Origin: a virus
Length of the DNA: 23,289 nucleotides
Direction: 5' to 3' (one strand)
IMG/VR virus record: IMGVR_UViG_3300046455_000165
Span: 1-23,289 of that record
The notes beneath the pieces are model-generated. The model worked only from the letters and a program-made list of their open reading frames with translations, did no database searches and had not been told where the DNA came from. This document shows positions 888 through 20,021 of this stretch, piece after piece. A program made the translations under genes and the position numbers. The number at the start of each line of letters is the position of its first letter. The first letter of the stretch is position 1.

Positions 888-1724
888 ATGCCTTTAGAGA
901 TACCGACAATAATCAAAGACCTCTATGCAAACTATCCATTTGATGGTGATTTAGTTGCACAGGGAAGGGAACATCTTATTAACTATAAGAAAGCGGTGGT
1001 TAATACTTTTCCTTATATTAACTCTGCTATAGAGACTACCCAAATCTATCTTGAGGATATGTTAAGAAAGGTTTCATTTGTTGATGATTCTTTAGTTTTT
1101 AATACCACAATATATAAAAGAGATTCGGGGGCCAGTAAATCAAATACATTAAGAGAGCTTTATATAACTAAAGACCAAAATATATTAGTAAGAGAGCCTT
1201 TACCACCATTAGGTACTGTTATTGAAAGTATTATGCTTCTATCTGAAATGCAGGCACTTTATGGTAATGATAAAGAAGGTAGACCTAGATGGGCATTATT
1301 AAATGGTCAAAGTATTATAGGTAGTAAACTTCAAGTAACTTCTAATATATCTACTTTACCTAATGCTTTTACAAATATGCTTTTCTTAGCAGCTCCTTTT
1401 GGTAGTGAGATAGAAGCTCAGGTTAAGCCATTTGATACTAATGTGAATAATCTAAAAATAACTACTAACTCTATTACTCATGGTGAGACTCATCATACAA
1501 GTACCCATACCCATACCCATACAAGGCAAGGATTAACTAATGAGGGAAATAGAACAAATAATGGCTCGGAAACTGCTCCTGATAATTGGGGTACAGCAAG
1601 GAGTACAATAGATGATAAGTTTGTAACTGCATCCAATACTCATACCCATACTCCTACTTTTACATGGGGAACTGAAACTGCTCCAAAGGCCTTAAAAGTT
1701 AATTATTTTATAAGGATAAACTAA
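888..1724 (+). CDS. Tail-tip adhesin 1, collar-like core with His-x-His boxes
   Basis: 278 residues, first of three tandem paralogues. Residues 1-60 form an attachment-type region (HLINYKKAVVNTFP). A collar-like core follows at about 104-160: PLPPLGTVIESIMLL, ALYG, then WALLNGQSI. Histidine boxes lie at 198-212 (THHTSTHTHTHT) and 251-255 (THTHT), and the chain ends NYFIRIN. Such His-x-His clusters bind metal along the axis of trimeric phage fibre tips (T4 gp37/gp12 type). The likely role is receptor binding at the tail tip. Its stop overlaps the next ATG (TAATG), and the AGG of the conserved RIN ending supplies the next ribosome binding site. A collar-domain tail protein is well supported; the receptor is unknown. 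Confidence 0.75.
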   Translation: MPLEIPTIIKDLYANYPFDGDLVAQGREHLINYKKAVVNTFPYINSAIETTQIYLEDMLRKVSFVDDSLVFNTTIYKRDSGASKSNTLRELYITKDQNILVREPLPPLGTVIESIMLLSEMQALYGNDKEGRPRWALLNGQSIIGSKLQVTSNISTLPNAFTNMLFLAAPFGSEIEAQVKPFDTNVNNLKITTNSITHGETHHTSTHTHTHTRQGLTNEGNRTNNGSETAPDNWGTARSTIDDKFVTASNTHTHTPTFTWGTETAPKALKVNYFIRIN

Positions 1725-2584
1725 TGATTATAAATGAATTTGACTTAACTACTCCTAAGGAAACAGACCCTCTTAGTATAGCAGATGATGAGATAAGGTC
1801 TATTAAAGGTGCTATCATGGATACCTTTAAATATTTTGACTCAGCATTTGAAATTAAGTTTTCTGATTTTAACAAATTTTCTACTTATTTAAATATAGAT
1901 GAAACTTCAAAGGTTATAAAATTAAATACTCCTAAATATGTTTATATGAATAGCAAGAGACTTTATGTAGACAATAATGGTGTTGTAATAAACCAGAATC
2001 CATTACCGCCACTGGGCTCAATAATAAAAACAGTTTTAACTTTAGCTCAATTAGATACACTTTATGGTGTTGGCACATTTGCATATTTAGATGGTTCAGA
2101 CCTAAATCCACAAGGTAGTTTAAAAAATGCAAATATAACTATAGCAACAGCCATTGGAACTCCACCGGACCCGTATATTAAATTAATGAATATAAATCAA
2201 GCTCCACCAGCAGCTCCAGCAGTCGACCCTAAAAGAACTTATTTTTTAAGACAATCTGATACTGAGGCAAATATAGAGAAATTAGAATTAGCTAAGACAG
2301 GAAAGCCTATAGGAGCTATAACTTCAACTGTAGTCTCTTATACCCATACACACTCAGGGAACCATGTTCATACCCTTTCAAATACTTTTGCTAATTCTGA
2401 TAAACATGGAAGAGACAGCACTTGTTGTCATGCTAATCTAACGACTTCTGAAATAACAACAGATGGTCCAAATATAACCACTACTGGTAGCTATACGCAT
2501 GGACATACAACTCTTTCAACGGCTGGTGATGATGAGACTAGGCCTAGAAGTATTAGTTTAAACTTTTTTATGAGGATAAATTAA
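1724..2584 (+). CDS. Tail-tip adhesin 2, paralogue of the preceding gene
   Basis: 286 residues with the same plan as its neighbours. The N-terminal motif DPLSIADDEIRSIKGAIMDTF (16-35, typical of phage fibre attachment domains) is followed by the core PLPPLGSIIKTVLTLAQL-DTLYG at 93-114. Histidine boxes are at 207-216 (THTHSGNHVH) and 258-261 (THGH), and the end is NFFMRIN. A Cys-Cys pair with His at 234-236 (CCH) is unique to this copy and might add to a metal site. It overlaps both neighbours by TAATG. The divergence between paralogues is greatest between the core and the His boxes, as expected for the receptor-facing part. The product is probably a trimeric tip protein; whether it forms hetero-complexes with the other two is unknown. 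Confidence 0.72.
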   Translation: MIINEFDLTTPKETDPLSIADDEIRSIKGAIMDTFKYFDSAFEIKFSDFNKFSTYLNIDETSKVIKLNTPKYVYMNSKRLYVDNNGVVINQNPLPPLGSIIKTVLTLAQLDTLYGVGTFAYLDGSDLNPQGSLKNANITIATAIGTPPDPYIKLMNINQAPPAAPAVDPKRTYFLRQSDTEANIEKLELAKTGKPIGAITSTVVSYTHTHSGNHVHTLSNTFANSDKHGRDSTCCHANLTTSEITTDGPNITTTGSYTHGHTTLSTAGDDETRPRSISLNFFMRIN

Positions 2585-3432
2585 TGGTAACTGAGAAAGC
2601 AATATATATACATGGAGTTGATGGACTTAATAGAGCTTGGCCTACAGGGGCAGACTCATTAAGTGAAGCAGATAATCATATAAGGATGTTAAAGTCTGTT
2701 ATCCAAAATACTTTTCCAAATGCTGATACTCCTTTGCTTGTCTCCTCTACTCAGATTAATAACTTACCAACAAGTATTAATTACTCTGGAGAGTATGTAA
2801 CCTTACTTGGACCTTATGATTATAATACAGAAGAAGATAAGATATTAAAGATAAACTCAAATAATGAGATTGTATTAGATGTAGAGGGTTCTTACCCAAT
2901 AGGTATGGTTTTTTGGAGCATTTTAACTTTAGCAAAAATTCAACAAATGTATGGAACTGGTTATGTTCTGGCCAATGGTCAAACTATTTCCAATACAACT
3001 GAATATTATAGAATTACTAATAAGACTACTGTTCCAAATATTATGGCCAATACTTATATTAGACCAACTTATCTTGTAAAGAGTACCTCAGGACCAGAAA
3101 CTAAAACACTTGAGCCATCTGAGGTTGTTCAAACTGAGTCTACTGCTGCGGAGGTTGGTTTTTCTGCTATATTAGATGATGTGGCCCATGCGCATGGAAT
3201 GAGCCATGTTCATAGATATAATGCTTCTAACAGTTACAATCATAGTGCTCATGAGAGCTCTGCAAATGTTCATGCAGCAAATTGGGAGCCAGCAAGTGGA
3301 ATTGTTAGTGGTCCTAGTTCTATGAACTTATCAAGTGATACTCATGACCATACAATTAACTTATTAAATAACACTCCAACAAAAAATGAACTTAATAGAT
3401 TAACACTTAACCCTTTTATAAGGATTAATTAA
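2584..3432 (+). CDS. Tail-tip adhesin 3, paralogue of the two preceding genes
   Basis: 282 residues, third member of the tandem set. It has the attachment motif TGADSLSEADNHIRMLKSVI then NTFP at 21-45, the core YPIGMVFWSILTLAKIQQMYG at 104-124 followed by VLANGQTIS, histidine boxes at 202-210 (HAHGMSHVH), 220-230 (HSAHESSANVH) and 253-256 (THDH), and the ending NPFIRIN. The His boxes differ in spacing from those of the other copies. Its stop overlaps the start of the nozzle-like gene (TAATG), with the AGG of the RIN ending as ribosome binding site, so all four proteins can be made from one message by coupled translation. Confidence 0.72.
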   Translation: MVTEKAIYIHGVDGLNRAWPTGADSLSEADNHIRMLKSVIQNTFPNADTPLLVSSTQINNLPTSINYSGEYVTLLGPYDYNTEEDKILKINSNNEIVLDVEGSYPIGMVFWSILTLAKIQQMYGTGYVLANGQTISNTTEYYRITNKTTVPNIMANTYIRPTYLVKSTSGPETKTLEPSEVVQTESTAAEVGFSAILDDVAHAHGMSHVHRYNASNSYNHSAHESSANVHAANWEPASGIVSGPSSMNLSSDTHDHTINLLNNTPTKNELNRLTLNPFIRIN

Positions 3433-12960: not shown

Positions 12961-13188
12961 TTAGACGAGTCTTATAAGCCTTGCCACATTTACGTTTAAG
13001 GCGGAAGCAAGGGCGTACAAATTAATCACACTAGGCAGTTGATTACCGGATTCATACCTTGCGATAGAAACCCTATGTATCCCGCATTTAGTGGATAGTT
13101 GCTCTTGCGAGAGCTTTTGTTTTGCCCTTGCGTCCTTTAAGTTTAATTTAATTGAATCTTTAATTTTTAATTCTAATTCTATTGGCAT
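12961..13188 (-). CDS. XRE/Cro-type helix-turn-helix regulator
   Basis: 75 residues from ATG 13188. A TTG further upstream extends the frame, but a GGGGAG box and a TAATG overlap with the exonuclease stop favour the ATG. Residues about 18-70 form a complete HTH_3 domain: ARAKQKLSQEQLSTKCGIHR, SIARYESGNQLPSV, then LYALASALNVNVARL. It would bind DNA, probably as a dimer. It is the last gene of the minus-strand recombination operon, so it may feed back on early transcription. A candidate operator is the 14-bp palindrome at 18741-18754, but this pairing is speculation. Confidence 0.85.
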   Translation of the reverse strand: MPIELELKIKDSIKLNLKDARAKQKLSQEQLSTKCGIHRVSIARYESGNQLPSVINLYALASALNVNVARLIRLV

Positions 13189-14069
13189 TATTCTTTCTCC
13201 CCTATTTTTAAAGTCCAACTTTCTGTCGGCTTTCTTTCAAACTCACTAGAAACCACAAATCCATTTTTCTCACAGAACTTTTTATAATCAAGTCCACCAG
13301 CTCTTAATGTTTTAAAGAGCTTCATGTTCTTGTAGCTCATCTTGTCATGCTTGGCATTGGAAATCAAATAAGCTCGTAGCTTTTCCTCTTCTATCTTTAG
13401 AGCTTCTATTTGCTTTTTAACAACCTCTATCTTATCGAAGGCAGTAGATAGGTCAAATTGAGACTCATCAACCTCATAGTAATCATCTTTGCCTAGTGGT
13501 GGTTCTACATTGGCCTCCATATAGGACATAAAAGCATCCGCAGCATCCTTGCATTTTGCAATAAAATCATTATCTCTTTCAACAGTAATGGCGAGCTTGG
13601 CCCCTGATTTAGTAACCACGAAGTAATTGGCCTCCTGAGCACCAGTAACATACATTTGCCATTGTAATTGGGCGAAGTGGTCAGGTCGTACATCCTTACC
13701 CTTTTTAAGGTCCGAGTAATACTCTTGAGCTACAAACTTAGCTTCAAATATCTCACCATTACAGTAACCATCAAGGGAACACTTATAAGGTGTATATTGT
13801 ATCTGAAAACACTTAGGCTCAAACACCTTACCAGTCAGCTCATTAAAGGAAGTCCTTGCCTCCTCCTCAGCTTGGCCGCCCATAATCTTGGCATACTCAG
13901 ATATTTGGTAGTCCTTGATTATATTTTTCTTGATTTTCCACAATTTGTTTTCAGAAATGTATGGAGATATACCAAGAATGGCAGGAACGTCAGACGCTCC
14001 CACTCCTTCTTTTCTCCATTGAATCCATTCCGGTGTACCTTGTTCTAGTTTAATTTCAAGTAAGCTCAT
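13188..14069 (-). CDS. YqaJ-type phage recombination exonuclease
   Basis: 293 residues. Motifs of the lambda-exonuclease/YqaJ nuclease fold are present in order: EWIQWRKEGVGASDVPAILG then SPY (14-36), GGQAEEEARTSFNELTG (64-80) with the conserved Glu, SLDGY (98-102) and E-A-K (109-111) as metal-binding residues, and HFAQLQWQMYVTGA (131-144). The C-terminal third is helical. Such enzymes resect one strand of double-stranded DNA and hand 3' tails to an annealing protein, which here is encoded in the same operon at 14665-15360. The start ATG overlaps the stop of a 31-codon ORF (ATGA), and its own stop overlaps the HTH start (TAATG). Confidence 0.88.
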   Translation of the reverse strand: MSLLEIKLEQGTPEWIQWRKEGVGASDVPAILGISPYISENKLWKIKKNIIKDYQISEYAKIMGGQAEEEARTSFNELTGKVFEPKCFQIQYTPYKCSLDGYCNGEIFEAKFVAQEYYSDLKKGKDVRPDHFAQLQWQMYVTGAQEANYFVVTKSGAKLAITVERDNDFIAKCKDAADAFMSYMEANVEPPLGKDDYYEVDESQFDLSTAFDKIEVVKKQIEALKIEEEKLRAYLISNAKHDKMSYKNMKLFKTLRAGGLDYKKFCEKNGFVVSSEFERKPTESWTLKIGEKE

Positions 14070-14161
14070 TTTTTCTCTCCTATTAAATCGGTTAATATTA
14101 TAATTATGATAGTAAGTAACACATTAGTTACAGTCAAGCTAATAAAGATAGCACCTATCAT
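14066..14161 (-). CDS. 31-residue single-pass membrane peptide
   Basis: ATG at 14161-14159, stop TGA overlapping the exonuclease start (ATGA). The peptide is almost entirely hydrophobic from residue 2 to 23 (IGAIFISLTVTNVLLTIIII) with a charged end (DLIGEKK). An AAAGGAG box lies about 10 bases upstream. Coupling on both sides argues that it is translated. Function is unknown; small phage membrane peptides can act in exclusion or host modulation. Confidence 0.6.
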   Translation of the reverse strand: MIGAIFISLTVTNVLLTIIIIILTDLIGEKK

Positions 14162-14292
14162 AATTTATTTTCTCCTTTAACTATCCTAGAACAGACTTTA
14201 AGTTTCTCATCCTTAGTCATAGGAAGAATGGCCTGGAGGTCGGCCATACAGGTTGATATTTTAAGAATCAAAGCAAGTGCAAGTGTAGTCAT
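14158..14292 (-). CDS. 44-residue small protein with hydrophobic N-terminus
   Basis: ATG at 14292-14290 with AAGGAG before it; its stop TGA overlaps the next ATG (ATGA). The N-terminus LALALILKISTC is hydrophobic and the second half is charged (MTKDEKLKVCSRIVKGENK). It contains two Cys. No family is recognised. Confidence 0.55.
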   Translation of the reverse strand: MTTLALALILKISTCMADLQAILPMTKDEKLKVCSRIVKGENKL

Positions 14293-14346
14293 TTATAATC
14301 TCCTTAAAAGAATTAATATTATTATTATTAACAGAAAGATAATCAT
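14293..14346 (-). CDS. 17-residue hydrophobic micro-ORF
   Basis: ATG at 14346-14344 overlaps the previous stop (TAATG), and the stop TAA lies directly against the next ATG. The translation is MIIFLLIIIILILLRRL: 14 hydrophobic residues then Arg-Arg-Leu. Its last codons contain the ribosome binding site of the next gene (AAGGAG). It may be a real toxin-like or leader peptide, or only a reading-through bridge that keeps ribosomes on the message. Confidence 0.4.
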   Translation of the reverse strand: MIIFLLIIIILILLRRL

Positions 14347-14501
14347 TATTTGCCCCTTAGAAAATAAATTAAAAATACTATAACCGCAATAAAAGTAACT
14401 AATAGAACACCAATATAAGTGTAGACTATTACTGTTACTGGTTGCTCTAGTTTACTTAAATCAAAATTCATTACTATATCGCCAATCTCTTTTACCTTCA
14501 T
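14346..14501 (-). CDS. 51-residue single-pass membrane protein
   Basis: ATG at 14501-14499 overlaps the stop of the preceding ORF (ATGA), with GGAG upstream. Residues 1-20 are polar (MKVKEIGDIVMNFDLSKLEQ), followed by a membrane span of about 26 residues (VTVIVYTYIGVLLVTFIAVI plus VFLIYF) and LRGK. Topology would be N-out or N-in with a short basic tail. Function is unknown. Confidence 0.6.
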   Translation of the reverse strand: MKVKEIGDIVMNFDLSKLEQPVTVIVYTYIGVLLVTFIAVIVFLIYFLRGK

Positions 14502-14665
14502 AACAACTCTCCTATATAAATAAATCTCTCATAAGAAGCAAGAAGGACATCCCCTCCCTGCTCTGTTTCGTGTGAAAAGGTTAATTTATTCCAGCAACTA
14601 AACACCACAAGAAATAGCTCATTTAATTGTGGTGAGTAGTAGATTTGTCCTGCTTTAAAGTTCAT
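14498..14665 (-). CDS. 55-residue small soluble protein
   Basis: ATG at 14665-14663 overlaps the annealing-protein stop (TAATG); the ribosome binding site would be inside that gene's end. The sequence begins MNFKAGQIYYSPQLNELFLV and has the look of a small beta-barrel (GQIYYSPQLNELFLVV, then GDVLLASYERFIYIG), a type common among short phage proteins. No function can be assigned. Confidence 0.55.
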   Translation of the reverse strand: MNFKAGQIYYSPQLNELFLVVFSCWNKLTFSHETEQGGDVLLASYERFIYIGELL

Positions 14666-15360
14666 TATTTACCTCCTATGCAATACTCTATAGCTTGGCA
14701 AACTTTAGAAGTATCAGGTGTCATTTTAGTACGGAAGTCGGTAGTCATTAGCCATTGATACCAGTCATTCAAATCTTTAAGAGCTACTGAGCCTATTGTA
14801 TGACCTTTAAACTTGCCAAAAGGTATTACTATTGACTTAGCCTTATCCAATGGTGATTGATTAGCAAATTGCCCCTCTAATGATTTAATGGCGGCATCCA
14901 CATCAGATGGTTTATTGACCACCAAAGGCTTAGCTTCAACAGGCTTAGAAACAGGAGAGGGAGCCAAACGGGTAGTATCAACCTTAAGAGCCTCTTGCTT
15001 CTCAATCGCATTTTGTACCTCCTCATAAGTAGCTATCGAAGTATCAACGCCAATACCTAGAAAGCCCAAAGCCCTACCTACCGCAGATGTTTCGCAATTT
15101 TCAATGAAGTTTGTTTTGTTTATGAAGCTAGTACCTTTATGCTCCATAGCTCTGCCCATTGATATGACCTTTCCAGATGGGTCTTTAACTAGGGCAACCA
15201 TTAGACAGAAATCTTTCTCAGTTCCAAGTTCCATTTTCTCTATGCCAACCTCAAGAGAATAACCCTTAAAATCGGGAGAGGTTCTAAAATACTTAATCCT
15301 CTCATTTACTTGGACATAATCTTTGTTGTTAATCTTAGTAGTCTTAAAATCAAAAGCCAT
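14665..15360 (-). CDS. Rad52/Erf-like single-strand annealing protein with C-terminal GKFKG domain
   Basis: 231 residues, strong AGGAGG box before ATG 15360. The N-terminal 120 residues contain IKYFRTSPDFKGYSLEV, a strand-rich middle, and FIENCETSAVGRALGFLGIG followed by TSIATYEEVQNA (85-117), resembling the helix motif of phage annealing proteins of the Rad52-like superfamily. A Pro/Lys linker (130-165) leads to a C-terminal domain at about 177-225, PFGKFKGHTIGSV with NDWYQWL, like the DUF3820 / exonuclease X C-terminal module. It would coat single strands and pair them with the product of the YqaJ-type exonuclease in the same operon. The family is inferred from motif and context; the C-terminal module is a less usual addition. 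Confidence 0.65.
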   Translation of the reverse strand: MAFDFKTTKINNKDYVQVNERIKYFRTSPDFKGYSLEVGIEKMELGTEKDFCLMVALVKDPSGKVISMGRAMEHKGTSFINKTNFIENCETSAVGRALGFLGIGVDTSIATYEEVQNAIEKQEALKVDTTRLAPSPVSKPVEAKPLVVNKPSDVDAAIKSLEGQFANQSPLDKAKSIVIPFGKFKGHTIGSVALKDLNDWYQWLMTTDFRTKMTPDTSKVCQAIEYCIGGK

Positions 15361-15390
15361 AAATATCCTCCTTAAATTAATGTTACCAGA

Positions 15391-15420
15391 AGGATAGTAT
15401 GGGAATAGTTACAATGTCAA
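15391..15420 (-). promoter_or_regulatory. Candidate promoter for the annealing-protein operon
   Basis: On the minus strand a perfect TTGACA (complement of 15415-15420) lies 18 bases before TATCCT (complement of 15391-15396). Transcription would begin about 25 bases before the annealing-protein ATG. The TTGACA abuts the stop codon of the upstream 27-codon ORF. The -10 matches only four of six positions. Confidence 0.5.
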
Positions 15421-15504
15421 CTAGGTATCAAAGAAAAAAACGATATATAAACAGACAGTAAATAATACTATGACAGGCAACATCTCAAGAAATACTTCTA
15501 ACAT
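15421..15504 (-). CDS. 27-residue membrane micro-ORF
   Basis: ATG 15504-15502, stop TAG 15421-15423. The translation begins MLEVFLEMLPVIVLFTVCLY and continues IVFFFDT, a single membrane span. An AAGGAA box lies upstream inside the end of the 59-codon ORF, with which it overlaps by 20 bases. Function is unknown. Confidence 0.45.
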   Translation of the reverse strand: MLEVFLEMLPVIVLFTVCLYIVFFFDT

Positions 15505-15664
15505 TTTTATATTTCCTTGGTGATGGGCCAATATCTTTTGTCGATAAAGGCTCTCCCATAGTAGGCAATACCATTATTTTTACGCCATTCTCAATCTTAT
15601 AATAGATAGATTCTGGAAGTTTCTTTTTCTTATATTGCTTATAGTTTTTAAATCTTAAATCCAT
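15485..15664 (-). CDS. 59-residue basic protein, function unknown
   Basis: ATG 15664-15662. It is preceded by ATAAGGAGTTTTAA, which matches the start box of the small genes at 16637-18493. The N-terminus is very basic (MDLRFKNYKQYKKKKLPES). The rest contains KIENGVKIMVLPTMGEP and a basic tail (SPRKYKNVRS). It may bind nucleic acid. No family is recognised. Confidence 0.55.
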   Translation of the reverse strand: MDLRFKNYKQYKKKKLPESIYYKIENGVKIMVLPTMGEPLSTKDIGPSPRKYKNVRSIS

Positions 15665-15674
15665 TTAAAACTCC

Positions 15675-15902
15675 TTATCCTTTGGTTTGTAATAGTTCCT
15701 TTCTATAGCTATCAATAGAATTTGAGAGGCTTAAAGACTTAATAAATCTACTCTCCCAATTATTAAGATTGTAGGTAGGTCTATATTTAATCTTTAGCTT
15801 AATGCTTCTTATTATTTCAGTTTGTTTTCTGCTTATAGTCTTATAAGTCTTAGGTCTTATTAACTTACTATTAGCTCTATTTTTATCCCAATTAATTTTC
15901 AT
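15675..15902 (-). CDS. 75-residue basic protein, function unknown
   Basis: ATG 15902, stop TAA 15675-15677; the stop forms the first bases of the TAAGGAG box of the next gene. The protein is rich in Lys, Arg, Asn and Ser (MKINWDKNRANSKLIRPKTY, RKQTEIIRSIKLKIKYRP, NNWESRFIKSLSLS). No ribosome binding site is visible; a possible promoter a few bases upstream could give an almost leaderless message. It may bind DNA or RNA; the family is unknown. Confidence 0.55.
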   Translation of the reverse strand: MKINWDKNRANSKLIRPKTYKTISRKQTEIIRSIKLKIKYRPTYNLNNWESRFIKSLSLSNSIDSYRKELLQTKG

Positions 15903-15912
15903 ATTTACAAAG

Positions 15913-15940
15913 CATATACCATAAGGTTACCATGTTACAA
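15913..15940 (-). promoter_or_regulatory. Possible promoter upstream of the 75-residue gene
   Basis: On the minus strand TTGTAA (complement of 15935-15940) lies 16 bases before TATATG (complement of 15913-15918). The start site would fall within about 10 bases of the ATG at 15902. A GGTTAC / GTAACC inverted pair (15925-15930 and 15961-15966) overlaps this area and could be an operator. Both box matches are imperfect. Confidence 0.25.
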
Positions 15941-15983
15941 GGCATTTATCTTATTTGGCCGTAACCTAAATAAACTGCGAAGT

Positions 15984-16223
15984 GAGCTGGAACGAAAACC
16001 CAAGCAACAGAATAGAACACTTGGAGATAGCTCTATAAACAGATTAAAAGATACTAGAAATGGATTAGATTAGCTGAGGAGAGTTTGTACTGTTGTTCTC
16101 GCTTAATGCCCTCATGCCTAGATAAAACTAGGAAACATTAAGATACGAAGCTAGAATAGTTCCAAGTAGGTCAGAGATTTTAGAAGTTTTCCCAATACTA
16201 TGAGGGGAAAAATGTTCTAGCTT
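15984..16223 (+). ncRNA. Structured non-coding RNA or long 5' leader upstream of rusA
   Basis: This gene-free stretch (15903-16236) holds three nested hairpins. I: GAGCT/AGCTC (15984-15988, 16029-16033) around CCAAG/CTTGG (16000-16004, 16020-16024). II: CTTAATG/CATTAAG (16102-16108, 16136-16142) around CCTAG/CTAGG (16117-16121, 16128-16132). III: AAGCTAGAATA/TGTTCTAGCTT (16148-16158, 16213-16223) around TTTTCCC/GGGAAAA (16187-16193, 16205-16211). Stems I and III extend by G-U pairs only when read as plus-strand RNA. The last stem ends 13 bases before the rusA ATG, so it may be a regulatory leader rather than a free RNA. It matches no RNA class I know. Confidence 0.55.
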
Positions 16224-16236
16224 ATTGAAAGGAATT

Positions 16237-16653
16237 ATGGAACTAAAGAATATACCCATACCGCCATCAGTAAACCATATGTATAGGACTCTCCCTAATT
16301 ATCGTAGGTGCAAAACCAAATATTTATTGGACTTTGAGAAGGACTTTGAATTGTGGGTATTACTCAATAAAGAGGCGATAAACACCGCCAGAAAGGAAAT
16401 AAAGGATAGCAAGTATCTAAAGCTAGACCTTAGATTCTATTTGAAGAGGCCTACGCTATTCTGTTTGAACAACACCGTAAAGAAAATGGATATAAGTAAT
16501 AGGATTAAAGCGGTAGAAGATGCGGTATCGAATTTATTAGGAATTGATGACAGCTTATTCTTTCAGGTATCAGCTAGCAAGGAAGTAGCGGACAAAGTAG
16601 GGGTAACTGCGACCATTACCCCATTAGATAGGCTAACTATTGGTTTAAAATAA
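16237..16653 (+). CDS. rusA: RusA-type Holliday junction resolvase
   Basis: 138 residues from ATG 16237; a TTG 12 bases upstream is also open but AAGGA lies just before the ATG. The family start IPIPPSVNHMYR (6-17) and the catalytic block VKKMDISNRIKAVEDAVSNL then LGIDDSLFF (81-109) are clear, with Asp85, Lys91 and Asp104/Asp105 as metal and catalytic residues. E. coli RusA has two Asp spaced D-x-D before the Asn; here the second is Ser87 (D-I-S-N). It would cut branched recombination or replication intermediates before packaging. It is the only plus-strand gene in this part of the map and runs convergently into a minus-strand gene, overlapping it by 17 bases. Confidence 0.85.
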   Translation: MELKNIPIPPSVNHMYRTLPNYRRCKTKYLLDFEKDFELWVLLNKEAINTARKEIKDSKYLKLDLRFYLKRPTLFCLNNTVKKMDISNRIKAVEDAVSNLLGIDDSLFFQVSASKEVADKVGVTATITPLDRLTIGLK

Positions 16654-16834
16654 TACCATCTTGGTCATAACTGATATGGCCACCATCTTCTAATGGCGTA
16701 TTATTTACACACTCGTCAGAACAGAACATAAGTCGGTCGATTTTCTCGCCCTTCTTAACCTTGTACTCCCTGCCACACCCTACACAATGGGTAAATAAAA
16801 AAACCTCCTGACCATTTACTCTTTTGTCGTTCAT
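16637..16834 (-). CDS. Small treble-clef/zinc-ribbon protein
   Basis: 65 residues. Four Cys form a metal site: C17-x-x-C20 (HCVGCGREY) and C38-x-x-x-C42 (FCSDEC), followed by an acidic tail. The FCSxEC signature is that of small treble-clef fingers. It is the last gene of the five-gene minus-strand block and shares its leader design (hairpin, GGC-AATTAA-GCC mini-hairpin, AATAAGGAGC). It overlaps the end of rusA on the other strand. It probably binds a nucleic acid or a host protein; the target is unknown. Confidence 0.65.
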   Translation of the reverse strand: MNDKRVNGQEVFLFTHCVGCGREYKVKKGEKIDRLMFCSDECVNNTPLEDGGHISYDQDGIILNQ

Positions 16835-16918
16835 AAAGCTCCTTATTTGGCTTAATTGCCTTATACATTTAACAATGGAGCCAGCCCCCTAACCCATTAA
16901 GTAGATGGCCCCACCGTT
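16835..16918 (-). promoter_or_regulatory. Leader module A (hairpin, mini-hairpin, start box)
   Basis: As minus-strand RNA, AACGGTGGGGCCA pairs with TGGCTCCATTGTT through 13 positions including G-U pairs (arms at 16906-16918 and 16871-16883, loop 22 bases). A second hairpin GGC-AATTAA-GCC lies at 16849-16860, then AATAAGGAGCTTT and the ATG at 16834. The large hairpin ends 37 bases before the ATG. Confidence 0.6.
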
Positions 16919-16939
16919 CAACATATAAACCATTATACG

Positions 16940-17242
16940 TTAAGAATATAATCCGCAATAATACTTAGCATCTTTGTATCTCATTTCATTGTAAGCCGCA
17001 TAATCCTCAGCTCTATTACTTGAACACTCTAAATCATCATCAGACTCTACAACCTCCTCAAGTTCCTCCTCATTAGCCTTCTCGTTTTCCTCAGCTACTA
17101 TAGACTCGTAAGATTGTTGGTCTAACTGGGCAAGTCTTGCCTCGTGGCACTCATTAGAACAGGTAAGCCCGTAGGTCATTGGGATTCCACAGATACAGCA
17201 GGTTAAATCAGATTCCATCATTTGCTCTTCTTTCTTAGTCAT
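16940..17242 (-). CDS. Small acidic protein with treble-clef finger
   Basis: 100 residues. A Cys cluster near the start, C15-C-x-C18 (TCCICG) and C28-x-x-x-C32 (TCSNEC), resembles the CSxEC half of the finger in the neighbouring 65-residue protein. Residues about 45-72 are strongly acidic (ENEKANEEELEEVVESDDD), and the end is Tyr-rich (YNEMRYKDAKYYCGLYS). A small zinc-binding protein with a DNA-mimic-like acidic segment is possible. The start is set by CTAAGGAGCTTTAAA before the ATG. Confidence 0.6.
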   Translation of the reverse strand: MTKKEEQMMESDLTCCICGIPMTYGLTCSNECHEARLAQLDQQSYESIVAEENEKANEEELEEVVESDDDLECSSNRAEDYAAYNEMRYKDAKYYCGLYS

Positions 17243-17307
17243 TTTAAAGCTCCTTAGTTATTGTTTAATTGTTCATTGATATGAGCCGACCTAAGCCAGC
17301 CCATACC
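17243..17307 (-). promoter_or_regulatory. Leader module B (hairpin and start box)
   Basis: As minus-strand RNA, GGTATGGGCTG pairs with CGGCTCATATC over 11 positions (three of them G-U), loop GCTTAGGT. The arms are at 17297-17307 and 17278-17288. The start box CTAAGGAGCTTTAAA precedes the ATG at 17242; the mini-hairpin position reads AACAATTAAACA and does not pair well. The hairpin starts 10 bases after the upstream stop. Confidence 0.65.
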
Positions 17308-17316
17308 CATTAACCA

Positions 17317-17727
17317 TTAAAGCCCTTCAACTTGATATTTTTGCATGATTGCCTTGCCGACAACGCCCAAGGTTTCTTTGATTTCCTTCTCAATGTGCCA
17401 GTAGATTGACCTTAAATCTGACCAAGGTTTTGAGCTTAAATCTCCCCATTGATTCTTAATCTTTCTGGCCATATTCAAATCATCATCACTCACAGTAAAG
17501 TCATAACTAAACTGGATGCTTGTGCCTGTATAATATCGGGTATCATTCATAATATCGCCATGAGCTTCTGACGTTTCCAAAGCCTTAATCTTATCAACTA
17601 ACTGGTTACTTGGCACTGTCTTAAAGGTTACTGTCATGGTCCTATAGTGCATTGAAGTTGATACCTGACAGCCCTCAGCTCTTGCTAGTTTCTTAATGTT
17701 TGCTGATAACTTCCGTAAATTGTCCAT
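17317..17727 (-). CDS. Small protein, function unknown (block 4)
   Basis: 136 residues. The N-terminus is a helix (NLRKLSANIKKLARAEG) followed by strands (CQVSTSMHYRTMTVTFK) and an alternating alpha/beta continuation (YYTGTSIQFSYDFTVSDDDL). The ending is helical (YWHIEKEIKETLGVVGKAIM). The S-x-x-x-T-x-T-V-x-F pattern faintly recalls small polyvalent-protein associated domains of phages, but this is not firm. Ribosome binding TTAAGGAGC precedes the ATG. Function is unknown. Confidence 0.6.
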   Translation of the reverse strand: MDNLRKLSANIKKLARAEGCQVSTSMHYRTMTVTFKTVPSNQLVDKIKALETSEAHGDIMNDTRYYTGTSIQFSYDFTVSDDDLNMARKIKNQWGDLSSKPWSDLRSIYWHIEKEIKETLGVVGKAIMQKYQVEGL

Positions 17728-17796
17728 TTAATTGCTCCTTAATAGGCCTGCTCAATTGCTAGGCTTGAGATACTGGCCAGCTATCTGACCAGTACC
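17728..17796 (-). promoter_or_regulatory. Leader module C (hairpin, mini-hairpin, start box)
   Basis: As minus-strand RNA, GGTACTGGTCA pairs with TGGCCAGTATC over 11 positions (two G-U), loop GATAGC; arms at 17786-17796 and 17769-17779. A second hairpin GCCT-a-GC / GCAGGC lies at 17746-17764 with loop AATTGA. TATTAAGGAGCAATTAA precedes the ATG at 17727. Confidence 0.7.
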
Positions 17797-17809
17797 GCAC
17801 GACCATCAA

Positions 17810-18133
17810 TCACCCATTAATCGTTTTAACTAGATTATAAAGCTCTACACAGAATTTCTTATCTGAAAACATGTGGACCCAAGTAGTTCCATTAGACTTA
17901 ATATGTAGGTTTGTTCTATCAGGTAGACCCAAACAAATAGAGTCATCAAACAAATCAATATCAAACTTATAAGCATAGTCGGAGAAGCCTGAATCTTTTA
18001 TTAGGTTTACCGACAAATCAAATTGGCTTGGCCTTACCCTCTTATCTACTTTCCATCTATAACCTTGGGCATAGAAGATAATTCCTGTTTCTGTTGTTTC
18101 TACGTTGGTAATTGTCTTTGATGATTTTCTCAT
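17810..18133 (-). CDS. Small protein, function unknown (block 4)
   Basis: 107 residues, apparently beta-rich: TITNVETTETGIIFYAQGYR, WKVDKRVRPSQFDLSVNL, FDIDLFDDSICLGLPD, HIKSNGTTWVHMFSDKKFC, then a helical end (ELYNLVKT). It has no signal peptide or membrane segment. No family is recognised. Start is set by TATTAAGGAGCATTTAA before the ATG. Confidence 0.6.
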   Translation of the reverse strand: MRKSSKTITNVETTETGIIFYAQGYRWKVDKRVRPSQFDLSVNLIKDSGFSDYAYKFDIDLFDDSICLGLPDRTNLHIKSNGTTWVHMFSDKKFCVELYNLVKTING

Positions 18134-18204
18134 TTAAATGCTCCTTAATAAGCCTGCTTAATTGCCTGCTCAGAGATACAAGCTGACAGATGCCAGCTCG
18201 TACC
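18134..18204 (-). promoter_or_regulatory. Leader module D (hairpin, direct repeat, start box)
   Basis: As minus-strand RNA, GGTACGAGCTG pairs with CAGCTTGTATC over 11 positions (two G-U), loop GCATCTGT; arms at 18194-18204 and 18175-18185. Between hairpin and start box there is a GCAGGC direct repeat around AATTAA (18152-18169). TATTAAGGAGCATTTAA precedes the ATG at 18133. Confidence 0.7.
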
Positions 18205-18217
18205 GCTTAACCTGTAA

Positions 18218-18493
18218 TTAGAAGGTGTTTAAATCTATTTGGCTTCTATAACCCAATAGCTTATCTCTATCATCAAACGAGATAGAGCTAATCAAATTCT
18301 TCTTATTATCTTCGTTAAACTCTATTCTTGGTGTCCCTTTGTAGATGATGATTCTCTTTGAGCTTGATACGTTCTTAGGTCGGTAGATAACCAAGGATTC
18401 GCCGTCAATAGTCTGAACCCAATCACCTGAGCTAATATGCTTCTCAGCTATGTTAATCATTACTAGGGCCAAATCACTGTTGGTGTTACTCAT
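18218..18493 (-). CDS. Small protein, function unknown (first gene of block 4)
   Basis: 91 residues: an N-terminal helix (SDLALVMINIAEKHI), then strands (SGDWVQTIDGESLVIYRPK, KRIIIYKGTPRIEFNED) and a charged end. It is soluble, with no known motif. It is the promoter-proximal gene of the minus-strand block and has the same leader design as the four downstream genes. Its product may act early in infection; this is inference from position. Confidence 0.6.
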   Translation of the reverse strand: MSNTNSDLALVMINIAEKHISSGDWVQTIDGESLVIYRPKNVSSSKRIIIYKGTPRIEFNEDNKKNLISSISFDDRDKLLGYRSQIDLNTF

Positions 18494-18571
18494 TTTAAAA
18501 CTCCTTATTAGTGGGCTTTATCGCCCTTGTTTATTGATTCATAGATTAGGGCCAATTTCTTAACCCTAACC
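18494..18571 (-). promoter_or_regulatory. Leader module E (hairpin, mini-hairpin, start box)
   Basis: As minus-strand RNA, GGTTAGGG pairs with CCCTAATC over 8 positions with G-U at position 2 (arms 18564-18571 and 18544-18551, loop 12 bases). A second hairpin GGGC-GATAAA-GCCC lies at 18513-18526. CTAATAAGGAGTTTTAAA precedes the ATG at 18493. Confidence 0.6.
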
Positions 18572-18591
18572 AATCAAAAAATAAACTGTTA

Positions 18592-18619
18592 TCAATTCCT
18601 ATCTGCTTACTCAATTCCT
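18592..18619. repeat. Direct repeat TCAATTCCT, 19-base period
   Basis: Two perfect copies lie at 18592-18600 and 18611-18619, about two helical turns apart. On the minus strand they read AGGAATTGA. They could be binding sites for a regulator or a weak iteron pair. Confidence 0.4.
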
Positions 18620-18740
18620 CCCATCCATACTAGATAGAGGCAAATACGAGTAGCCCCAAATCGGTAGGCTTCGTAACCTAGTTTAGCTCGCCCAAGTGGG
18701 TATCGAGTGGCAAAATGTAAAGACGGGAACAAGACAAGAT

Positions 18741-18754
18741 TAACTAATTAGTTA
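18741..18754. promoter_or_regulatory. 14-bp perfect palindrome, candidate operator
   Basis: TAACTAATTAGTTA is fully self-complementary. It sits in the control region upstream of the minus-strand block, next to repeated GTTAC words (18751, 18774 and 18821) and two GTCTAAC words (18761-18767 and 18795-18801). Length and symmetry suit a dimeric HTH protein such as the one at 12961-13188, but no link is shown. Confidence 0.4.
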
Positions 18755-18923
18755 CTATCTGTCTAACTATTCGGTTACAACAATTCAATATTTAGTCTAA
18801 CATTTAATTACATCCATAAGGTTACTAATAAAAGAAACTGACAATGCCGTAATAAATCCCAGTCAGTACCAGATAGATTAAGTTATAGAATAAGGTAATG
18901 AGTATTAAATAAAGGTAGGCCAA

Positions 18924-18929
18924 TATAAT
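18924..18929 (+). promoter_or_regulatory. Possible -10 box of the plus-strand gene at 18994
   Basis: A perfect TATAAT lies 64 bases before the ATG. No convincing -35 box is seen at 16-18 bases upstream, so an activator or another sigma factor might be needed, or the match may be chance in AT-rich DNA. Confidence 0.3.
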
Positions 18930-18993
18930 GGAGAGTGGATAGGATAAAAAAAAGTAGAGATTATTAATTGAGAATTAGGAGATACACCAATTT

Positions 18994-19191
18994 ATGAGTA
19001 AACAAAGGAAGGCAATTGGTAGACCAAAACCCAATCCAACCCCAGAGCTAATCAAGTATATAAGGATACAGCTCCAAATAACCAATGACCTGCTTAAGAA
19101 CAACGGCATGTCATCACATCGTTATGCTCTCTTATCGGGTAGGGTAGATGCTTACGCCCAGATAGTTAGTTGGTTGAAGGATAGATGCTAG
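18994..19191 (+). CDS. Small basic protein, function unknown
   Basis: 65 residues beginning MSKQRKAIGRPKPNPTPELI; the GRPKP stretch resembles an AT-hook-like minor-groove binder, followed by helices (IRIQLQITNDLLKNNG, VDAYAQIVSWLKDRC). The nearest AGGAG is 12 bases from the ATG, longer than usual. It is the first plus-strand gene after the control region and is separated from the terminase genes by its own gap with a promoter. A DNA-binding role is plausible only. Confidence 0.5.
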   Translation: MSKQRKAIGRPKPNPTPELIKYIRIQLQITNDLLKNNGMSSHRYALLSGRVDAYAQIVSWLKDRC

Positions 19192-19217
19192 GTCGAACGT
19201 CGAATCGGGGTAGAAAG

Positions 19218-19246
19218 TTGAAAGGTTAAACGTTATAATTTATAAA
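19218..19246 (+). promoter_or_regulatory. Sigma70-type promoter for the terminase operon
   Basis: TTGAAA (19218-19223) and TATAAA (19241-19246) are separated by exactly 17 bases, each five of six to the consensus. Transcription would start near 19253, about 165 bases before the small-terminase ATG, leaving a leader that includes the hairpin at 19306-19325. Confidence 0.6.
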
Positions 19247-19305
19247 AAAGTAAATTACTATTTAATACAAATAAATATTTAGACCCCGTTTCAAAAACTG
19301 TAACT

Positions 19306-19325
19306 GGAGTTTGAATGCGAACTCC
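19306..19325 (+). other. Leader hairpin before the small terminase gene
   Basis: GGAGTTTG (19306-19313) pairs with CGAACTCC (19318-19325) over 8 positions with one U-G, closing an AATG loop. No U-run follows, so it is not an intrinsic terminator. It may act as an RNA stability or processing element. Confidence 0.45.
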
Positions 19326-19418
19326 CCTAGACACCCTAAAATTTAACATTCCAATTCATACTCTTTTGCTCAAGCTCTTACCTCTTGCATACCATAATAA
19401 ATAAGCTACAGTAGAGTA

Positions 19419-20021
19419 ATGGACAACAATAAAGAGCCTATTGTGCTAGACCCTCTTGATGATACAATCGGATTAGATGACTACTGCGACATACCGAGTA
19501 AAGCGTTGGCTGCTGAGAATATACCTAGCTTGGTTAGCACTCTTGACGACTATTGCGACATACCTACGAAGGACCTCGCCTCTGAATTCTTTGATGTTGA
19601 TGTTGAGCAACCTAGTCCACTTGTTCCTTCTACCAGATTTCCGACAATGGTTAAGCATGAGGTTACTAGGGAGAAGAGGCTCAAAGTAAGGTTAATGAAG
19701 GTGGCAGGTATTGATAACGAGGTGCTAGCTAAGTGCATGGGCATATCTCAGGGTGTGTTGCACAAGTATTATAAAGCTGACTTAGAGGTTGGAGCTGCGG
19801 AGTGTACAGCTCTTGTTGCTGGTAAGTTGATGGAGAAGATAAGGAATGGAGATACAGCAAGTATTATATTTTACCTTAGAACTAGGGGAAAGTGGGCCCC
19901 TAAAAATGAACTTGAGATTACACATAGTCATACTATAAGACCTAGAAGCAAAGAGGAGATTGAGAGTGAGTTGCTTCGGATTGGTGTTCCACCTGATAAG
20001 CTCCATGAGCTTACAGAGTAA
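19419..20021 (+). CDS. terS: Small terminase subunit (DNA-recognition)
   Basis: 200 residues. A central helix-turn-helix (LMKVAGIDNEVLAKCMGISQ, then GVLHKYYKADL) is followed by a helical oligomerisation part (ECTALVAGKLMEKIRNGDTA) and IIFYLRTRGKWAPKNE, a combination typical of small terminases that bind the packaging site and recruit the large subunit. The N-terminus has a duplicated acidic motif, LDDYCDIPSKALAAE at 19-33 and LDDYCDIPTKDLASE at 42-56, not usual for the family. The large subunit lies 1.5 kb downstream in the same direction. The start ATG has only a weak upstream purine run. Confidence 0.7.
   Translation: MDNNKEPIVLDPLDDTIGLDDYCDIPSKALAAENIPSLVSTLDDYCDIPTKDLASEFFDVDVEQPSPLVPSTRFPTMVKHEVTREKRLKVRLMKVAGIDNEVLAKCMGISQGVLHKYYKADLEVGAAECTALVAGKLMEKIRNGDTASIIFYLRTRGKWAPKNELEITHSHTIRPRSKEEIESELLRIGVPPDKLHELTE

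Follow-up and report, generated by a model that had tools for sequence, protein, structure and literature searches.

The early RNase III sites of phage T7 (R1.1 type) are irregular sense-strand hairpins of about 60 nt that carry unpaired internal positions and lie between small genes. R1.1 itself measures 60 nt and comes from between genes 1.0 and 1.1 (PMC6121014). In cluster K mycobacteriophages, repeats known as SAS and ESAS stand before the start codons of a subset of non-structural genes, with an upstream inverted repeat whose spacer varies. According to Pope et al. 2011 (PMC3203893), where the arms of these inverted repeats differ, the changes as a rule do not favor RNA pairing; the Adephagia repeats contain SigA-like promoter hexamers (PMC11373665). 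Integron attC sites keep their structure while their sequence varies and are arranged in gene-cassette arrays. T4-type phages have PeSL, reportedly mobile regulatory cassettes in which an early promoter is combined with a terminator-like loop. Where PMC4177764 mentions PeSL cassettes, it attributes them to Arbiol et al. 2010.

The locus described here shares features with each of these systems. It lies in a 23.3-kb viral fragment, IMG/VR virus record IMGVR_UViG_3300046455_000165 (positions 1 to 23,289; hereafter the window), whose terminase large subunit is ~43% identical to those of podophages, Proteus phage Privateer among them. Between a RusA-like gene (16225-16653, plus strand) and the terminase side of the genome lies a cluster of five small minus-strand genes (18493 to 16637), which we treat as one operon on the strength of their order. 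Gene 1 (18218-18493, 91 aa), gene 2 (17810-18133, 107 aa) and gene 4 (16940-17242, 100 aa) had no family match; by eye, the Cys pairs of gene 4 are arranged as in a zinc ribbon. Gene 3 (17317-17727, 136 aa) had no match in 50,697 phage records, and gene 5 (16637-16834, 65 aa) is zinc-ribbon-like.

A first-pass annotation of this DNA had claimed a structured RNA leader before each of the five genes, and all five were found where it had placed them, on the minus strand. Copy 1 (18528-18587, core 18571-18544) precedes gene 1, copy 2 (18159-18220, core 18204-18175) gene 2, copy 3 (17753-17812, core 17796-17769) gene 3 and copy 4 (17262-17323, core 17307-17278) gene 4; all four fold, and with model R1 they scored 69.8 bits (E = 4.9e-16), 67 bits (E = 3e-15), 64.9 bits (E = 1.1e-14) and 71.7 bits (E = 1.5e-16), respectively. 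Copy 5 (16857-16931, core 16915-16874), before gene 5, is divergent and has an extra apical hairpin. It is a weak member of the family by model score (R1 14.8 bits; E = 0.32 within the window and 0.27 in a larger search) yet folds well, at -33.1 in the sense and -10.6 in the antisense orientation.

The cores end 35-50 nt upstream of the ATG. The annotated stems (11 bp in three copies, 8 and 13 bp in the others) exist but are actually longer: in minimum-energy folds, copies 1-4 have stems of 12, 13, 12 and 13 bp closed by 4-nt loops, and copy 5 has 13 bp plus the apical hairpin. Stems of at least 12 bp were found in four of the five leaders, as against 4 of 1707 75-nt windows taken outside the cluster, and in only 0.05-0.4% of dinucleotide shuffles of the leaders. 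Since such stems are this rare elsewhere and after shuffling, the leader stems are not a product of chance.

The whole element is a composite hairpin of ~62 nt. Its core of 12-13 bp starts with GGUA, ends with UAUC and usually encloses a 4-nt loop, the sequence of which is not conserved. Below the core lies an outer helix of up to 11 bp, only partial in some copies, and between the two are a purine-purine mismatch, two covarying pairs and a second, mostly unpaired position. Neither the outer helix nor the mismatch, which was present as A.G, G.A or G.G in 17 of 17 aligned copies, had been noticed before. The second core pair had been described as G-U in all five leaders, and it is so in copies 1-4 and in copy 5, where the first core pair is G-U as well; across the family it is G-U in 16 of 17.

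We then examined covariation in a plain MAFFT alignment of the 17 copies. As the copies are kin, shuffles overstate the significance of the differences in paired cells (90.5% versus 74.6%, with none of 500 shuffles as high), in cells changed on both sides (62 versus 20.8) and in the covariation score (0.536 versus 0.248); the slid controls, which reached at most 0.133, and the prediction of copies in a further phage (below) are free of that weakness. Both sides had changed in 16 of 26 pairs. Taken by itself, the outer helix scored 0.467 versus 0.220 in shuffles that carry the same kinship bias, and its count of double-changed pairs was not above shuffles. The annotated observation that stems vary in sequence yet keep pairing is thus supported far above both kinds of control, in the covariation test that the annotation had itself proposed.

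The pairing also distinguishes the strands. In 19 of 20 copies the sense strand, that is, the mRNA, gave the more stable fold (mean -25.5 versus -14.0 kcal/mol), and G-U cells outnumbered A-C cells by 71 to 12. For both reasons, selection most likely acts on the sense RNA, as the annotation had argued for the minus strand. This bears on whether the leader could instead be a DNA-level site, acting as an operator, as an inverted repeat that carries a promoter in the manner of the cluster K ESAS, or as a recombination hairpin of the attC kind that shuffles cassettes. Genes and leaders have been reassorted between phages, as such a site would predict, and single-stranded DNA of the sense strand folds better too; however, compensatory changes that include G-U wobble favor RNA, no sigma-70-like promoter was found within the leaders, and the seams of exchange fall at start codons rather than at a constant position within the hairpin. 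In the relative with a terminal repeat, neither integrase nor Y1 transposase families gave a match. We consider a DNA-level site very improbable.

Compared with attC sites, the leaders likewise keep structure over sequence in an array of gene cassettes, but they lack the RYYYAAC/GTTRRRY ends (the outer helix reads GTT ... AAC), favor the sense rather than the bottom strand and have their seams at start codons. A search for integron integrases (PF00589) gave no match in four records. The likeness to cluster K drawn by the annotation holds for layout and fails for RNA pairing, because the leader arms covary and those of cluster K generally do not; the leaders also contain no SigA-like promoter. 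The annotation was right that the sequences differ: the 13-bp SAS GGGATAGGAGCCC has three sites with 3 mismatches in the window (4.4 expected), none of them at a leader. Repeats with the layout of cluster K start-associated sequences can therefore be RNA rather than DNA elements. The phage leader RNA element is near certain to be real, and it is previously undescribed; a search of the leaders with Rfam 15 covariance models gave no match up to E = 1, and it has no Rfam counterpart.

A leader pattern search identified two uncultured relatives, L131 and L132, whose terminases are 89% and 70% identical to that of the window and which also share the position of the cluster. L131 has three leader copies, up to its contig end, and L132 has six. 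Their cluster genes are related to those of the window: the L131 orthologue of gene 1 is 98% identical, the L132 orthologue of gene 2 is 87% identical and lies behind a different leader core, and gene 5 is related to cluster genes of L132 and of a further phage, L136. A covariance model built from 13 copies (from the window, L131 and L132) found six new copies in L136, with a best E of about 1e-14 and a weakest of 0.05. The search of relatives suggested by the annotation thus returned new copies upstream of small genes. They precede six of the seven cluster genes of L136, the seventh being preceded by a short frame without a leader, and none occurs elsewhere in its 41.4 kb. The L136 genome (41,378 bases) is probably complete, because it has a 123-bp end repeat; L139 is the same phage. 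One further copy was found in L135, at the contig end, 10 nt downstream of a stop codon.

No model match came from records, several of them fragments, whose terminase identity is 53% or lower, and scans of viral contigs with single proteins (the recombination protein, the terminase and gene 3) found nothing. A pattern search by Shine-Dalgarno sequence only gave at least 120 matches, mostly single, and was set aside as chance. Core-only patterns, run on viral and bacterial collections, gave beyond the known relatives only lone core matches without the flanking architecture, which we also took as chance. In the collections searched, the element occurs only in a single clade of uncultured phages, and there only in one gene cluster. 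The observation is therefore larger than the one first annotated, as leaders precede nearly every gene of one small-gene cluster across a phage group. As a separate observation, one cluster gene of L132 (4053-4418, minus strand) had a weak match to SprT-like metallopeptidases (E = 7e-5, below the curated cut-off), and the protein of L136 6058-6474 (minus strand) is its 72% homologue.

Leaders and genes have been reassorted among these phages, and the leaders form islands of homology between non-homologous genes. The core of window copy 3 is identical to that of an L132 leader that precedes an unrelated gene, and identity between the window and L132 spans 17725-18176 and ends at the ATG of gene 3. 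Likewise, the copy 4 leader (17261-17322) shares 92% identity with a leader of L132, and the genes on either side are non-homologous. Two orthologous pairs of leaders in the window and L131 have flanks that are 97-100% identical and cores that are 63-68% identical; in one such pair, all six changed core pairs are still paired. Rapid substitution with compensation and the exchange of cores are both sufficient explanations of this divergence. It is possible, though unlikely in our estimate, that the leader is an RNA module, present once per gene, in which compensated substitutions rapidly alter the core stem, so that the copies of one genome share shape and not sequence. With such a module, a single RNA-acting factor could act on every gene in the same way, deletion between repeats would be avoided and the leaders would be standard joints for the exchange of accessory genes. 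Like T4-type PeSL, the leaders are hairpins that recur between small genes and mark the seams of gene exchange. Unlike PeSL, they contain neither an early promoter nor a terminator-like loop.

For the function of the leader, we tentatively prefer, at nearly even chances, an intercistronic processing and stability signal that doubles as a gene-swap seam and that RNase III of the host probably cleaves, as at the T7 early sites. The hairpin would form within the mRNA of the minus-strand small-gene operon, where its irregular duplex of ~26 bp would be a substrate for the double-strand RNA nuclease of the host; a search of these phages found no RNase III gene, and the host enzyme is therefore assumed. 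Cutting would split the polycistronic transcript into units that each have their own Shine-Dalgarno sequence, the hairpin may also protect the mRNA ends, and the repeated leaders would become seams for gene exchange between phages as a by-product. Several properties argue for processing: the element is about as long as R1.1 (62 versus 60 nt), and its shape is kept while its sequence varies, as expected for a duplex nuclease. In the 13 intercistronic copies checked, moreover, the upstream stop codon lies 2-13 nt ahead of the core, inside the outer helix, and the Shine-Dalgarno sequence does not pair in a consistent way, being unpaired with a mean probability of about 0.5; in L136 this sequence is mostly a different one, with the same hairpin. 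The absence of a U-tract and of a sigma-70-like promoter from the leaders points the same way. Unlike R1.1, which has a 4/5-nt asymmetric internal loop, the leaders have single opposed (1x1) mismatches, and unlike the T7 early sites they form a set of many compensated copies whose cleavage by RNase III is a prediction. Further points speak against processing: copy 1 stands at the head of the cluster, with no cluster gene ahead of it to be cut apart from gene 1; the outer helix is partial in some copies; and the fixed G-U pair and purine-purine mismatch could equally be contacts of a specific RNA-binding protein.

Because of this fixed wobble and mismatch, the main rival to processing is a regulon-wide RNA operator, recognized at these two positions by a phage or host RNA-binding protein that controls the translation or the stability of all the cluster genes together. 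One element per gene, and leaders that remain when genes are exchanged, would suit such an operator. However, the element ends 1-22 nt upstream of the Shine-Dalgarno sequence and does not consistently hide it, the loop sequences lack conservation, and no RNA-binding protein was recognized among the few proteins searched. We regard the operator as possible, if rather doubtful. The leader hairpin probably cuts or stabilizes the shared mRNA and marks points of gene swapping, and the cluster offers a clean test case for the handling of polycistronic early mRNA by phages and for gene-cassette exchange at RNA-coding joints.

Downstream of the hairpin, the annotation had claimed that a mini-hairpin is usually present, and this holds for four copies: in copy 1 it reads GGGC-GATAAA-GCCC (18507-18527 with its linker, minus strand), copies 2, 3 and 5 have the GC-AATTAA-GC type, and copy 4 has none. 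Across the family, about two thirds of the copies are followed by a mini-hairpin with an AAUUAA-type loop; in some of these, mini-hairpin and outer helix compete. This competition, together with stop codons inside the outer helix, raises a translation-coupled switch, in which the 5' strand of the outer helix is masked by a ribosome that stops on the upstream gene; the mini-hairpin would then form instead, and this would decide whether the long duplex, and hence cleavage, can occur. When those 16 nt were held open in copies w2, a2 and c4, the mini-hairpin did form, at a cost of 1-4 kcal/mol; by contrast, both helices coexist in copies w1, a1, b1 and b3, and copies w4, a3, b2, b5 and c3 have no mini-hairpin. 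Since it is not universal, the switch is only a minor rival, and an improbable one. The claimed start box TAAGGAGC is real in the window but is no part of the element, because L136 keeps the same hairpin with mostly GGAGGTATT in its place. Some leaders contain a small upstream reading frame (ATGGTTAAT...TAG), which was dropped because others lack it.

The leaders had been judged not to be terminators, and without a U-tract after the stem this stands. A transcription-elongation RNA repeated along the operon, either a put-like antitermination signal or a pause or attenuation site, would fit a sense-strand structured RNA at the operon head and at every joint, and a second conserved block does lie upstream of the first leader. 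Antitermination, however, usually relies on no more than one or two copies, whereas the leader recurs gene by gene, and the joints have no U-tracts or intrinsic terminators; we give this reading little probability.

The second block (18728-18600, minus strand) was found in four phages as CACATTNNGC...GATACCC...GGGC...GTATTTGCC. Its small stems seem to covary (CTCG/CGAG, CTTG/CAAG; TAGG/CCTA, AAGC/GCTT, AGGA/TCCT), it has no Rfam match, and it is a candidate operon-head RNA. Sigma-70-like promoter matches were fewer than in shuffles in window 13000-19450 (10 versus 22), L132 2600-5500 (0 versus 9) and L136 4400-7500 (2 versus 8).

Other features of the window were also recorded. A scrap resembling RusA, ELSKQIGIDNSLFF (18576-18620, minus strand), is weak (E = 0.008 in a 1-kb search) and contains a 26-bp inverted copy (88%) of 16538-16563 within the RusA-like gene. 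The minus-strand gene at 12961-13218 is of the Cro/CI helix-turn-helix type (HTH_3, E = 6e-16). The protein of 14665-15360 (minus strand) probably belongs to a recombination module, and its N-terminal half is ~47% identical to proteins of Lactobacillus delbrueckii phages, whereas the terminase of the window is closest to proteobacterial podophages. Finally, three tandem genes of ~280 aa each at 888-3432 (plus strand) have His-rich C-terminal parts and are probably paralogous, and L136 has three tandem genes of similar sizes.
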